64,000 bases of DNA from Akkermansia sp. RCC_12PD (GTDB lineage Bacteria; Verrucomicrobiota; Verrucomicrobiia; Verrucomicrobiales; Akkermansiaceae), in assembly GCF_036417355.1 (NCBI RefSeq), contig NZ_CP143889.1, positions 1,426,001 to 1,490,000 on the forward strand, written 5' to 3'. A program made the translations under genes and the position numbers. Position 1 is the first letter of the stretch; the number at the start of each line of letters is the position of its first letter. Positions 14,610 to 60,926 of this stretch are shown in pieces. The notes beneath the pieces were generated by a model, which searched no databases, was not told the origin of the DNA, and saw nothing but the letters and a program-made list of their open reading frames with translations.

Positions 14610-15863
14610 TTAGTGTTCAATGGTGTGGACGAAAAGCCCGCTGCGCAGCTTGGGCTCGAACCAGGTGGATTTGGGGGGCATGATTTCCCCGGCGTCCGCC
14701 ACGCGGAACAGGTCGTCCATGGTGACGGGATACAGGGAGAAGGCCAGCGCCATCTCTTCGGCGCAACGGCGTTCCAGTTCTCCCAGGCCGCGGATGCCGC
14801 CCACGAAGTCGATGCGGTCGTTGGTGCGCGGGTCGTCAATGCCCAGGATGGGAGCCAGCAGGTTGGCTTGGAGGATGGCGCAGTCCAGGCTTTCAATGGG
14901 ATGGTCCGCGTCGAAAGTGCCCGGTTTGGCGGTAAGGGAATGCCAGCGGCCGTCCAGATACATGCCGAATTCATGCTTGGCGCGCGGGGCGTAGCCTTCT
15001 CCCGGAACGGTGTCTGCGGGGACCACGTCGAAAACGGTTTGAAGCTTTTGCATGAACTCGTCGCGGCTCAGGCCGTTCAGGTCGCGCACGACGCGGTTGT
15101 AATCCATGATGAACAGGTCCTCGTCGCAGAAGACAACCGCCATCAGATAGTTGAATTCTTCCTGCCCCGTATAGTCCGGGTGCGCCTTCCGGCGTCTGGC
15201 GGAGACGGCGGCGCTGGAGGCCGTGCGGTGGTGGCCGTCCGCAATGTACAAAGCTTCCACTTCCTCAAATCCTTTCCGGATGGCCTCAACGGTTGAGGGA
15301 TCTGCAACAGGCCACAGAATGTGGGTTACGCCGTCCTCCGTGGTGAAATCGTATTCCGGCTTATGAAATTTGATCCATTCCCGGATGATGCGGGAAATCC
15401 CATCATGCTTCCGGTACGCCAGAAAGACCGGTTCCGTCTGCGCGGAACAGGCATCGAAATGCTCGATGCGGTCCAGTTCCTTTTCCCTGCGGGTCAGTTC
15501 ATGCTTCTTGATAGTACCGTTCGCATACTCGTCCACGGAGGCGCAGCCGACGATGCCTGTCTGCACGCGGCCCCACATGATCTGGCGGTAAATGTAAAAG
15601 GACGGTGCGCCGTCCTGGACGAGGTAGCCTTTCCGGATGAAGGCCTCCAGGTTTTCCTTCGCCCTGGCGTAGGTTTCCTGGGCATGAATGGCTTCCTCGC
15701 CCGTATCAATGTCGGAACGGCAGATGTGCAGGAAAGAGGCGTCGTTTCCGGCGGCCATCTCTTTGGCCTCCTGATGGTTCATGACGTCGTAGGGCAGGGA
15801 GGACACCCGTGCGGCCATATCCCGTGGAGGCCGCAGGGCGGGAAAAGGGTGGAGAGTGGACAT
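14610..15863 (-). CDS. DUF1015 family protein, serine-operon partner
   Basis: A 417-residue soluble protein matching the DUF1015 pattern: FPALRPPRDMAARVSSLPYD at the start, HICRSDIDTG, SFYIYRQ, IKKHELTRREKELDR, YIADGHHRTASSAA, MDYNRVVRDLNG and MPPKSTWFEPKLRSGLFVH at the end. This family is repeatedly found next to serA and serC-type genes, and a kinase or serine-metabolic role has been suggested in related bacteria; the sequence does not settle it. The HHRTAS motif is the most obviously conserved active-site candidate. It is immediately upstream of serA with a 21-base gap. Confidence 0.88.
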   Translation of the reverse strand: MSTLHPFPALRPPRDMAARVSSLPYDVMNHQEAKEMAAGNDASFLHICRSDIDTGEEAIHAQETYARAKENLEAFIRKGYLVQDGAPSFYIYRQIMWGRVQTGIVGCASVDEYANGTIKKHELTRREKELDRIEHFDACSAQTEPVFLAYRKHDGISRIIREWIKFHKPEYDFTTEDGVTHILWPVADPSTVEAIRKGFEEVEALYIADGHHRTASSAAVSARRRKAHPDYTGQEEFNYLMAVVFCDEDLFIMDYNRVVRDLNGLSRDEFMQKLQTVFDVVPADTVPGEGYAPRAKHEFGMYLDGRWHSLTAKPGTFDADHPIESLDCAILQANLLAPILGIDDPRTNDRIDFVGGIRGLGELERRCAEEMALAFSLYPVTMDDLFRVADAGEIMPPKSTWFEPKLRSGLFVHTIEH

Positions 15864-19496: not shown

Positions 19497-21047
19497 ATGA
19501 TGAGAGTCAGATTATGGACGATGGCGGCGGCCGCATTGTTTTTATCCGGATGGGCTTCCGGGGAAGGGCGGAATAAAAAGATGGAGGAATGGCTGCTGCC
19601 TTCCGGTACGTTGAAAGCGTTTGCGGAATACATGCCCGCCTATGGAAAGCGGGCGTTTCCCGGACCGGATGCACGGGAGGCGGCTCGGCTGGAACAGGCA
19701 GTGGATGCCGCCAGGAAAGCGAAGGATGCCCGCGCCCTGGCGGAAGCCGCTGCCAGGCTGGATGCCTATTGGCAGTCAAAGCTGGATGCCCTGTATGCTC
19801 CCGTGGCTGCATGGCTGTCTTCACGGTGGTTTGTGAAGGCGGAACTGATTCCGTACAAATATGGCAGAGCGTACGAAATGCCCATGCAGGAATTGCAGGA
19901 CGAACTCGTCATGCTTGCCTGGGCGGCGACGCAGGCCGCCTGGGAGAAATTCCTTCAGGCGGATGAAGAATTTTACAGGGCATGGATTCTGGCCGAACGG
20001 AAGCGCCGGGAATATCCGGACTTGGGGGAAACTCCGTTCCGGGAGAAGCTGGGGGACATGGAAGAGGCGCAGGTGCTGGTGCGCCGAGCTTTAAAAAAAA
20101 TGGAAAGGATCATGGCCATTGCCGATACGGCGTGCGCGACGCATGCCTATCCCCTGGTGGATGCCGTTCCCGTCCACCCCGGATGGCAGGAGGATGATCC
20201 CGTTCTGCACAGGGTGGAGCAGGCCGTATGTTCGTCCGACTATCCTTTCATCAAATCCATGATGATGGAGTACCGGAATTACTGGAAAGCCCGTCTGGAC
20301 GGCATCAGGACGGCTCTGCTGAGAGAGGACGGCTACAGGCCCGGTATGGAAACCGGATGGGAGAAAAAACTGAAAATGGCGAATCGTGCCTGGAGGTATT
20401 ATGTGATCATGTCCGTGGAATACGAGATACAACCCGGAATCTATTTCTGGAGTTCCGGTATTGACATTTACATGACGGCACACTGGACATGGCTGTACCG
20501 GCAGCGATGCCGGGATTTGATGACGCTGGCCGGACTGGCGCCGGAAAGAAGGGCGGAAGGTTTTGAATGTCCTTCCCGTTCCTTTGCCGGATTCGGGGAG
20601 GCGCGTCTTGCGATGGAGCGCAAGGCCTCTGCCGGAGGGCCTTTGGCGGCGGAATACGCGGAATTGGCGGAGAATCTGGAAAAACTGCGCACGGATTTGG
20701 ATGATGCCGCATCTCCGTGGCGGGCCGTTTTTTTAGCCGTCAGGCTGAAGGATGAGGACGCGCTCCGGCTGTTGACATCCCGTATCCGGCTGCATGAACA
20801 GCACGCTCTTCTCAAGGGCGCGGTTACGCCGCTCATGGAGGCCGCCGAGGCGGGTTCCTCCGGGATGGTCCGGATTTTGGGGACATGCTGGGGAATGATC
20901 AATGCGGAAGACTGGCGAGGGCGGACCGCACTGGACATCGCCCTGGAACATGGTCATGGGGAAGCTGCATCCCTGATCCGGGAGAATGGTGGAATGACCG
21001 GAGCGGAGAAAAGAAGGAAAGAAGAGAAGGAGGCTGCCCGCAAATAG
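19497..21047 (+). CDS. Secreted helical protein with C-terminal ankyrin repeats
   Basis: A 516-residue protein of no recognised full-length family. A signal peptide is likely (MMRVRLWTMAAAALFLSGWASG). Residues about 45-430 are Ala/Glu/Arg/Trp-rich and helical. The C-terminal 75 residues show two ankyrin-like units: VTPLMEAAEAGSSGMVRILG and RGRTALDIALEHGHGEAASL. The last 15 residues are Lys/Glu-rich. Ankyrin repeats mediate protein binding, so a periplasmic or surface scaffold is plausible, but function is unknown. It is divergent from the LysR gene and has no close downstream partner. Confidence 0.78.
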   Translation: MMRVRLWTMAAAALFLSGWASGEGRNKKMEEWLLPSGTLKAFAEYMPAYGKRAFPGPDAREAARLEQAVDAARKAKDARALAEAAARLDAYWQSKLDALYAPVAAWLSSRWFVKAELIPYKYGRAYEMPMQELQDELVMLAWAATQAAWEKFLQADEEFYRAWILAERKRREYPDLGETPFREKLGDMEEAQVLVRRALKKMERIMAIADTACATHAYPLVDAVPVHPGWQEDDPVLHRVEQAVCSSDYPFIKSMMMEYRNYWKARLDGIRTALLREDGYRPGMETGWEKKLKMANRAWRYYVIMSVEYEIQPGIYFWSSGIDIYMTAHWTWLYRQRCRDLMTLAGLAPERRAEGFECPSRSFAGFGEARLAMERKASAGGPLAAEYAELAENLEKLRTDLDDAASPWRAVFLAVRLKDEDALRLLTSRIRLHEQHALLKGAVTPLMEAAEAGSSGMVRILGTCWGMINAEDWRGRTALDIALEHGHGEAASLIRENGGMTGAEKRRKEEKEAARK

Positions 21048-24226: not shown

Positions 24227-25451
24227 TCAGTGAATGATCGGATGGCCGTACAGTTTGTCCCATGCCCTGGAAAGGGCGTACAGGGCATAACCGGTACCAT
24301 AGAATTTGTGATAATTGTACAATGGATAGTCCCACCAGGAACCGTCTCTTCCCTGGCGCGCAAGGATGTCGCCGGCCAGCAGAGACGCATGACGTTTTAC
24401 CTGATTGGGGGCCAGCATGTCCAGACACATTCCTGAATAATAATATCCATAATAGAAAAAGTACCCGGAATTCTGTGCGAAGCTTTCATGCGGAACCGGC
24501 TTGTGGAGGGCCATGGTCAGCCAGCCCCTGCGGCTCCACAGGCGGTCCAGTCCGTCCACAAGCTGGCGCATGGAAACATCTTCCGGTTCCCACAGCTTGA
24601 TGGCGTAATCGCAGGCCGGGGTGCGGGCCAGGCTGCCGGTGTGGCGGTTGATGGGTCTGCCGGGATAATAGGAGTGGCTCAGGGAGTAAACATAGGTTCC
24701 GGCCGGGGTACGCTGGGATTTGAGGAATTTCAGGGCCCGGCGGAATACCTTCTCATCCAGGGAAAGGCCGAATGTCTTACCGGCCATCCATGCGGAAATG
24801 AGAACGGTCCCGGTCAGGAAGGAGGTGGGTTCCGATGCTGGCCGTTTGCTGAATCCGATGTAGGTGAGATAGCCCCAGCCCCCCTTGGCGGAAGCCAGTT
24901 CGTTGAGCCTGTCCACCTGGAGGCGGGCGCAGTCCATGAGTTGTTTGTAGCGCGGGCTTTCGCGGTCCAGCCCGGCCGCACGCATGCTCATGGCGTCCAG
25001 CACGTAGGTATGCGCCCAGATGTTGTAAACGCAGAGGGCGTCCCCCCCGCTTCAAATGGGGCATCGTCCGGATCAGGTAATCTTCCGCGCGGGTCATGGC
25101 TTCCCGTACCTTTGGTTCGTCCCGCAGGGGAGTGGCGTTAAGTCCCGCGATGCACAGGGCCGTGCTCGCCGTCTTGAAGGTGAGCGGGCCGTCCGGATAG
25201 GGGCAGAGAATGTTCCATGTGCCGATCACCCGGTGGTCTCCCCAGGAGCCGTCCCTGTTCTGTTTTTCCAACAAAAAATCCACGCCGCGGCGGAATGCCG
25301 CGCTGAATTGTCCGCGTTCAGCAGGAGGAATATCCGGAATTTTTGCAATGGAAATGGTATCCTTCCGGTTGCCGGGTACCGTTTCCGGTTCTCTGGCGGA
25401 AACAGCCAGGGACGCAAGCAGAAGCAGGCTGGAAAGCAAAAGGCGGAACAT
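24227..25451 (-). pseudogene. Alpha-toroid (prenyltransferase/squalene-cyclase-like) protein, frameshifted at a G7 run
   Basis: Tandem paralogue of the next gene upstream. The N-terminal part reads from MFRLLLSSLLLLASLAVSA (signal peptide) through QNRDGSWGDH to MPHLKRGG, then leaves frame. The rest, from VLDAMSMRAAGL to the end KLYGHPIIH, is in another frame. The break is a run of seven C on the plus strand (25042-25048). With six, the join reads HLKRGDALCVYNIWAHTYVL and the product is 407 residues, exactly the length of the paralogue. So this is a recently disrupted gene, a slippage (phase-variable) gene, or a base-call error. The QXXXGXW motifs mark an alpha/alpha-barrel like terpene cyclases. 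The substrate is unknown. Confidence 0.85.
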
Positions 25452-25453
25452 GG

Positions 25454-26677
25454 TTAGGAAGCGGGCGGGGTGGTGGGATAAAGCGCGCTCCGGACCCGGG
25501 AAACGGCGAACAGGGCGTAGCCGGTGCCATAAAATTTGTGATAATTGTAGAGGGGATAGTCCCACCAGGAGCCGTCCTTCTCCTGCATGGGCAGGATGTC
25601 GTCCGCCAGATGGGCTGCATGGCGCGGCAGCCGTTCCCGGGGTACCTGGTCAAGGCAGCGGGCGGCGTAGTAATACCCGTAGTAGAAGAAATAGCCTGCA
25701 TTTTGCGCGAAGCTTTCATGAGGGATGGGTTTCTTCACCGCCAGGGAGAGCCACCCGGAGCGGCTCCAGATGCGTTCCAGCCCGTCTTCCAGCTGGCGTC
25801 TGGAAACAAAAGCCGGATCGTACTGGATCAGGGCCAGGTCTCCGGCGGGGGTGCGGGCCAGGCTGCCGGTGTGGCGGTTGATGGGCCTGCCGGGATAAAA
25901 CATGTGGGATATGGAATACACATAGCTCCCGGCCGGAGTCCGCTGTTTTTCCAGGCTGGCGACGGCGCGCTTGACAATCTGGGGGTCGGCCTGGAGGCCG
26001 AATGCGCGTTCGGCGTCCTTGAAGGCAATCAGCACCGTAGCCGTCAGGAAGGAGGTGGGTTCCCCCATCGGCCGTCTGGAAAAAGTTTTAAAGGTGTAGT
26101 AGCCCCAGCCGCCTTTGACGTCCGCCATCCAGTTCAGCGCCTCCACCTGCAGTGCGGCCACTTTCTTGAGCTCCGTGTATTGCGGGGAGTTCTCAGGCAG
26201 ATTTTCAGCGGCGCGGCACAGGGCGGAGAGGCCGTAGGCATGACCCCATACGCCGAGGACGGTGCGCGTGTCTCCGCGCTTGAGCAGGGGAAGGGTGGCA
26301 AGCAGGTACTGGACGGCCCGGTCAATGGCTCCCTTGACGGCGGGTTCATCCTTCAGCGGACTGGCGAGCAGGCCGATGACGCACAGGGACGTGCAGGCGG
26401 TCCTGAATGACCTGGGGCCTTCCGGGTAAGGGCAGATCACATTCAGCCCCTTGGTGCGCGTGTGGTCTCCCCAGGAGCCGTCCTTGTTCTGGCTGGCCAG
26501 AAGGAAATCCGCCGCCCTGCGTATGGACTGGTCCAGCGTTTCCCGGGAGGGGGGCTCCACGTCCGGAACCTTTTCAATGGGAATGGTGTCTCTTTTTTCC
26601 CCGCCTTCCGTCGGCACAGGTGCGCCAAGCGCCGTGCAGGCACTCAGAACGGAGAGGAAAAGGACGGCCTTATTCAT
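25454..26677 (-). CDS. Secreted alpha-toroid protein with squalene-cyclase-like repeats
   Basis: A 407-residue secreted protein: signal peptide MNKAVLFLSVLSACTALGAP, then helical repeats with QW-type motifs (SQNKDGSWGDH at about 62-72, MQEKDGSWWDYPLYNY near 375). This is the prenyltransferase/squalene-oxidase repeat fold, an alpha/alpha toroid. The DXDD motif of true hopene cyclases and the metal ligands of prenyltransferases were not seen, so it is not a standard terpene enzyme. Strongly conserved with its tandem copy are YPGRPINRHTGSLARTPA, PHESFAQNAGYFFYYGYYY and YHKFYGTGYAL, which may line the cavity. It lies 14 bases after the adaptor gene and 2 bases before the second copy. Confidence 0.85.
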   Translation of the reverse strand: MNKAVLFLSVLSACTALGAPVPTEGGEKRDTIPIEKVPDVEPPSRETLDQSIRRAADFLLASQNKDGSWGDHTRTKGLNVICPYPEGPRSFRTACTSLCVIGLLASPLKDEPAVKGAIDRAVQYLLATLPLLKRGDTRTVLGVWGHAYGLSALCRAAENLPENSPQYTELKKVAALQVEALNWMADVKGGWGYYTFKTFSRRPMGEPTSFLTATVLIAFKDAERAFGLQADPQIVKRAVASLEKQRTPAGSYVYSISHMFYPGRPINRHTGSLARTPAGDLALIQYDPAFVSRRQLEDGLERIWSRSGWLSLAVKKPIPHESFAQNAGYFFYYGYYYAARCLDQVPRERLPRHAAHLADDILPMQEKDGSWWDYPLYNYHKFYGTGYALFAVSRVRSALYPTTPPAS

Positions 26678-59710: not shown

Positions 59711-60926
59711 ATGAAAAAGTCTTATTGGTTCGTGGCGCTTTTTTGCTGCTGCCTGTCCGCGGCGGGTGCGCAGCAGCCCGATGTGCCGTCCGTCGCCGGA
59801 AATGTGGTGGAATGGAGGCATCATCTCCACGAGAATCCGGAACTTTCCTTCAAGGAATACAACACAGGCAGATATGTGGCCGATATGCTGCGCTCCTTCG
59901 GCAATATTGAAGTCATCCGGCCTGCGGAAACTTCCGTCATAGGCATTCTTCGCGGAGCCAAACCCGGCCGTACCGTGGGTTTCCGGGCGGACATGGATGC
60001 CCTTCCCGTGCAGGAGGAAACCGGGTTTTCCTTTGCCAGCAAGACGCCGGGCATCAGCCATGCCTGCGGTCATGACATGCATACGGCCATGCTGCTGGGA
60101 ACGGCCAAGGTCCTTTCCGGCATGCAGAAGGAACTGCAAGGCACGGTTTATTTCATTTTCCAGCATGCGGAGGAAAAGTCCCCCGGCGGAGCTTTGCAGA
60201 TCATCAAGAGCGGGAAGCTGAAGGGGGTGGACGCCATTTTCGGCGCACACGTCATTCCCAACATGCCGGCGGGGTCCATCGGCATGCTGCCGGCTGGCGC
60301 CGCTTCTTCTTCATCGGATGGATTTTTCCTGACCATTCAGGGTAAGGGTTCCCACGGTTCCATGCCTCAGATGGGCGTGGACCCCATCGTGACGGGGTCT
60401 GAGATCGTGATGATGCTTCAGACCGTCGTGTCCCGCAATGTGACGCCCGGGGAAATGGCCGTGGTTTCCGTCGGAAAGTTCCAGTCGGGAGACGCTCCGA
60501 ACGTGATTCCCGGCAAGGCGGAGCTGGCCGCGTCCATCCGCACCGTCACGCCGGAAACCCGCAAGTTGATGGAGGAGCGCGTCCGTTCCATCATCGGCCA
60601 TGTGTGCGAGGCCAACGGGGCGGCGTACAAGCTGGATTACGTGCTCGGCTACCCGGCTATTCAGAATGATGCCGCTCTCCGGGAACTGGCGAAGAAGGCC
60701 GCCATGGAGGCGGTGGGTGCGAAAAACGTGTTCGATGTCCCGAGACTTTCCGCCAGTGAAGATTTTTCCTATTACGCGCAGGTGGCGCCGACTTATTTCA
60801 TGATCGTGGGTTCCGGTGACGGTCCCCCCCAACCACAATCCCGGTTTCAGGGCGGATGACAGCGCCTTGCTCAACGGCGTGAAGGCGGAAGTGCGGATTA
60901 TTCTGGATTACCTGAACGGCAAGTAG
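59711..60926 (+). pseudogene. M20 family amidohydrolase, frameshifted at a C7 run near its end
   Basis: Secreted zinc peptidase-family amidohydrolase (hippurate/N-acyl-amino-acid hydrolase type, M20D), signal peptide MKKSYWFVALFCCCLSAAGA. Metal ligands are visible: SHACGHDMHT at about 117-126 and HAEEKSPGG near 152-160, with EAPRL-like late core SASEDFSYYAQ. The uninterrupted frame ends at 60859 with the odd tail PPQPQSRFQGG. Removing one C from the seven at 60824-60830 restores GPPNHNPGFRADDSALLNG through YLNGK, stop at 60926, total 404 residues. That tail includes the conserved His (NHNPGF) thought to be a metal ligand, so the present frame should be inactive. Slippage, true mutation or base-call error are all possible. 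Confidence 0.86.

Follow-up and report, generated by a model that had tools for sequence, protein, structure and literature searches.

One-base changes in homopolymer runs that shift genes out of frame are described as the main residual error of long-read assemblies (PMC8011154, PMC12007338). The sign of these errors is reported to depend on the polishing step (PMC8011154, PMC12007338), insertions prevailing at one stage of a pipeline and deletions at another (PMC8011154). Poly-G phase variation, proposed earlier in the genus Akkermansia (PMC3048395), is known there from Amuc_1413 of Akkermansia muciniphila, where one additional base in a G9 tract truncates the gene, the G9–G10 tract giving mixed reads (PMC13055324).

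The locus described here lies in a window of 64 kb, i.e. the whole stretch of DNA that was analysed (64,000 nucleotides), in a single-contig Akkermansia assembly (G000). A gene for an M20-type amidohydrolase is split there at a run of seven C. The case resembles the long-read errors, in which genes are split by one-base run indels whose sign depends on the assembly or polishing step; it differs from them in that the pattern comes from the comparison of assemblies and not from reads. With Amuc_1413 it shares the truncation of a gene by a +1 in a G/C run, but the amidohydrolase run is C6–C7, is not conserved and is known from assemblies alone. As to the enzyme itself, the full-length copy of the sister assembly G001 aligns through the C-terminal histidine with three M20-type amidohydrolases (TIGR01891), namely YxeP (1ysj), 4ewt and the plant ILL2 (1xmb).

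We put at about three in four the probability that the seventh C is a consensus error made in base calling or assembly. The assembly would then read a true C6 as C7, and the organism would make the whole secreted enzyme, an M20-type amidohydrolase of about 404 aa. As this is the likeliest explanation, the organism probably has an intact gene. We infer both the membership of the amidohydrolase C7 in a class of homopolymer errors and the intactness of the enzyme in the cell from the comparison of sequences.

The amidohydrolase gene and its C7 run

The amidohydrolase as assembled reaches 341.8 bits with the TIGR01891 profile (cut-off 153.75) and thus belongs to the family, yet the C-terminal histidine is missing from it, as are the last 30 residues. 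Its 382-aa ORF carries the Pfam domains Peptidase_M20 and M20_dimer, and its N-terminus, judged by eye, is signal-peptide-like. A sequence-only reading had proposed that one extra C shifts the frame of this gene, and that one C fewer restores an NHNPGF motif and a natural end at 60926. The position of the run and the frame analysis are exact. By codon the site reads GGT CCC CCC CAA; the assembled ORF ends in ...GDGPPQPQSRFQGG followed by a stop, while the frame onward of 60831 reads NHNPGFRADDSALLNGVKAEVRIILDYLNGK, carries the motif and has its stop ending at 60926 (Table 1). The histidine of the motif therefore sits in the displaced frame. In the G001 protein the NHNPGF histidine aligns with the histidine of HHP/HSP in 4ewt, YxeP and ILL2, a position that we take to be a metal ligand in ILL2 and its kin. 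The protein made as assembled should be inactive.

Table 1. Coordinates of run lesions and of split genes (bare positions are those of the window)
Feature	Position	Strand	Remark
M20-type amidohydrolase ORF as assembled, 382 aa, early out-of-frame end	59711..60859	+	ORF list, TIGR01891, Pfam
C7 run (C6 or interrupted, frame-keeping versions in the other carriers)	60824..60830	+	exact position
Displaced rest of the amidohydrolase frame, NHNPGF to stop	60831..60926	+	one base off
C7 (G7 on coding strand) in "toroid" gene	25042..25048	-	one base fewer in relatives
"Toroid" gene, front part as assembled, ORF of 262 aa (G001: 454 aa)	24777..25565	-	
"Toroid" gene, remainder in other frame	24239..25045	-	98% identical to G001
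murG, split in G000	G000:C1:1502738-1502745		locus L218
murD, split in G001	G001:C1:957758-957761		locus L097
HrpA helicase, net +1 split in G000	L187:14952-18647		intact G001 copy
GH123 glycosidase, net +1 split in G000	L188:6567-8735		intact G001 copy
AsnC/AhbB-like (AsnC/siroheme-decarboxylase-like) protein, net +1 split in G000	L179:13165-14286		intact G001 copy
Histidine kinase, net +1 split in G000	L176:12514-13695		intact G001 copy
Thioesterase-like protein, net +1 split in G000	L176:11983-12468		intact G001 copy
M60 peptidase, net +1 split in G000	L094:2945-4465		intact G001 copy
WecG/TagA/CpsF glycosyltransferase, apparent split site	G000 L110:11439-12253; G001 L105 around 15677-15688		family from rear piece only

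The amidohydrolase was found by protein search in 9 of 76 genomes of the genus, own genome included. A DNA search returned the same eight orthologues together with short chance-like matches, and one exact 27-base pattern gave no match in viral contigs. The eight other carriers all read the gene in one frame to the natural end, at residue 404, so that a frameshift shared by the genus is rejected. The two closest relatives (G001 and G046) have C6 at the run, and the six other carriers an interrupted run that keeps the frame. All seven relatives that can be aligned at 60824 are in frame without the extra C. The +1 is thus private to G000.

We aligned 87 homologous ORFs, of which 7 come from the genus and the other 80 are the best of 582 relatives; two loci repeat contigs of two others, which leaves 85 distinct ORFs, 84 of them with the histidine. 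In this set of the best 80 of 582 plus 7, the NHNPGF histidine is kept in 86 of 87 ORFs, and the same number continue for 27–50 residues from its column; the 87th, without the histidine, runs off the end of its contig. Loss of this histidine should therefore kill the activity. The same alignment bears on the idea that the 382-aa form is a natural and functional short variant, for which nothing speaks beyond the ORF itself. Since 86 of these 87 ORFs run on past the histidine and the remaining one is truncated by a contig end, we reject this idea, the least probable of all those considered here. None of these 87 ORFs ends naturally at the shorter stop, an outcome that would have spoken against the sequence-only reading.

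The main rival to the consensus error is a genuine and very recent +1 slippage mutation in the isolate, which would have inactivated the enzyme through the loss of 30 residues at the C-terminus and of the last conserved histidine. It agrees with a +1 that is private to G000 in an otherwise intact gene, and with the retention of the histidine in the alignment just described. It also agrees with the presence of the gene in just 9 of the 76 genomes, the other members of the genus managing without it. Codon changes on the G000 branch were counted against G001, with G046 as outgroup. Before the run they amount to 4 nonsynonymous and 10 synonymous, and in the 32 codons after it to 0 nonsynonymous and 2 silent. 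Amino-acid changes are thus few, and past the run the gene shows no decay; the shift therefore either arose at the extreme tip of the branch or is absent from the genome. Slow pseudogene decay is rejected on the same counts, and the absence of nonsynonymous changes past the run also weighs against the recent mutation, which we consider unlikely.

Another possibility is phase variation, C6 (on) and C7 (off) alternating in the population by slipped-strand mispairing. Its precedents in the genus are Amuc_1413 and the earlier proposal mentioned above. Phase-variable poly-C/G tracts are about 8 bases long or more, and the amidohydrolase tract has just 6 or 7. It exists in G000, G001 and G046 only, of nine carriers, and is thus no conserved switch; nor is another tract length at the same frame seen in any intact relative. 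We hold this explanation to be very improbable. A real but leaky C7, with some full-length enzyme produced by +1 ribosome slippage at CCC-CCC-C, ranks lower still. The codons of the site would suit it, CCC-C is documented as +1-prone (in E. coli up to 1% at codon 2; PMC4519876) and SufB2 is known from its isolation as suppressor of an extra C in a CCC codon (PMC7803779). But it presupposes a real C7, and no slippery site is conserved in further relatives. It also leaves the shared pattern unexplained, as the toroid run (below) is G7 when read on the coding strand. Between these two in probability we place a combined version, a real and reversible leaky switch: C6 would give the full enzyme and C7 a mostly dead one with a trickle through +1 slippage, and the other run lesions would reflect a strain-wide tendency to +1 slippage instead of error.

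A second lesion of this type lies 35.8 kb away, in the "toroid" gene, whose G001 copy has a weak match to Pfam SQHop_cyclase_C. This C7 is also a +1: the eight alignable relatives are all in frame without the extra base, G001 having C6. The likeness of the two lesions in type and sign, already remarked from the sequence, thus holds. The C7 pattern has 6 overlapping matches (4 separate runs) in the window against 34.6 expected from shuffles. C7 runs are thus rare there, and two of the four separate runs break genes. The under-representation of C/G runs of 7 or more is window-wide.

Run lengths and reading frames in G000 and its relatives

We compared stretches amounting to 664 kb of G000 (window included) with 680 kb of G001, about 21% of the single-contig genome; 498 kb aligned, with 94% identity. 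Runs were counted where the shorter copy has at least 4 bases and lies in an ORF of at least 150 aa of either genome, shadow ORFs included; the counted site at -229098 looks like one of these. C/G runs agree in length at 1790 sites and differ at 13, each time by one additional base in G000 (sign test, p = 0.0002). A/T runs in ORFs differ in both directions, 3 being shorter and 7 longer in G000. The C/G differences are concentrated in the longer runs: 5 of 69 where the shorter copy has 6 bases or more, 8 of 1734 where it has 4–5. Where the shorter copy has 3, C/G runs in ORFs are shorter in G000 at -241508 and 58845 and longer at 19560 and 312637. Outside ORFs the C/G differences go both ways (one -1, one +1 and one +3).

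G/C runs mutate fast in real cells too. True slippage is expected in both signs, and the +1-only pattern in ORFs therefore goes against the recent mutation. Outgroups polarised 10 of the 31 differences in ORFs, 5 being ambiguous and 16 without an alignable outgroup. Seven are derived in G000 (6 C/G +1 and 1 C/G -1) and three in G001, all of these losses, one of them in a C/G run. Part of the 13 to 0 excess consists of G001's own losses (72943, 223739), which also account for part of the net +1 junctions given below. The bias stands at 13 of 13 against G001, yet at 6 plus to 1 minus once polarised, a small count that is not significant alone, and the C7 total of G000 is not above that of its relatives. 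Genome-wide there are 305 C7 matches in G000, 235 in G001, and 300, 327, 374 and 292 in four other relatives. Long C runs are thus not in general excess in G000, which falls within the range of these four (292–374); it is G001 that is low.

Frames were compared in the same way. Among 325 ORFs shared with G001, G000 has 23 frame junctions, 18 of them internal (15 net +1, 1 +2 and 2 -1), some being losses in G001 or shadow ORFs. In the reverse direction G001 has 22 junctions, 20 of them internal. A frame-split test on three genomes gave 9 of 84 for G000, 7 of 79 for G001 and 4 of 82 for G010, shadow ORFs included. The total of split genes in G000 is not clearly above that of its relatives; this total, like that of the C7 matches, weighs mildly against the consensus error and favours the recent mutation. 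Because antisense shadow ORFs and overlong starts enter the ORF-based counts of split genes and junctions, we rely on the junctions that lie in genes of named families.

Split murG, murD and other genes

Besides the two genes of the window, the genes of named families with a net +1 split in G000 are MurG and the six listed in Table 1. The histidine kinase and thioesterase sites were compared with G001, without outgroup polarisation. About 16 kb from the amidohydrolase C7 and about 12.7 kb beyond the end of the window, a G run with one additional G splits the single murG of G000 into two frames. This run is short, 4 to 5, unlike the C6 to C7 of the amidohydrolase. In G001, G010, G004 and G046 murG is one intact frame above the family cut-off. 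A murG match is present in 72 of the 76 genomes of the genus, G000 included, and is in two pieces in G000 only; 8 of the 71 others have one stop within the matched stretch, and the match of G062 is partial. At E 1e-20, G005, G021, G036 and G050 are the four of the 76 genomes with no murG match. G005 (2.7 Mb, rated 100% complete) also has none above the family cut-off.

Both murG and murD are listed as essential in Verrucomicrobium spinosum, of the same phylum, and as non-essential in a planctomycete of the same table (PMC12283558). It is implausible that an Akkermansia could live with a dead murG, and the G000 assembly very probably contains at least one +1 run error. G001 offers the converse: its only murD is split by one base lost in a T run, murD being one full-length frame in G000, G010, G004 and G046. 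This sister assembly very probably has at least one -1 run error. A frame change relative to G000 is also seen in G001 in the C-terminal part of FtsH, near G001:C1 757533.

The one-way C/G differences, together with the split murG of G000 and the split murD of G001, indicate that both assemblies very probably carry homopolymer-length errors. The C7 runs of the amidohydrolase and of the toroid gene fit this class. That of the amidohydrolase is a private one-base change of run length, and the same lesion affects a gene that should not be dispensable, murG. Since the same kind of +1 splits the only murG of G000, the extra C is most likely an error and not biology, which again goes against the recent mutation. 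One error in murG does not prove an error at the amidohydrolase C7. Conversely the presence of C7 in the assembly does not show its presence in the cell. The statement of the sequence-only reading that the gene is broken thus stands for the assembly; as biology it is not supported, the same kind of +1 being found in several G000 genes, including the only murG. Homopolymer errors appear to split cell-wall genes of essential type in the single-contig assemblies of two close Akkermansia species, murG in one and murD in the other. Any pseudogene or phase switch called from either of them should first be supported by reads.

A long G tract in a glycosyltransferase gene

In both assemblies a WecG/TagA/CpsF glycosyltransferase gene seems split where it has a long G tract (G10 for G000, G12 for G001). 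An ORF containing the G10/G12 tract was rejected as the gene at this site: it has no Pfam match, and the real gene is on the opposite strand. Poly-G phase variation is more plausible for this G tract than for the C7 of the amidohydrolase, although homopolymer errors could contribute as well.
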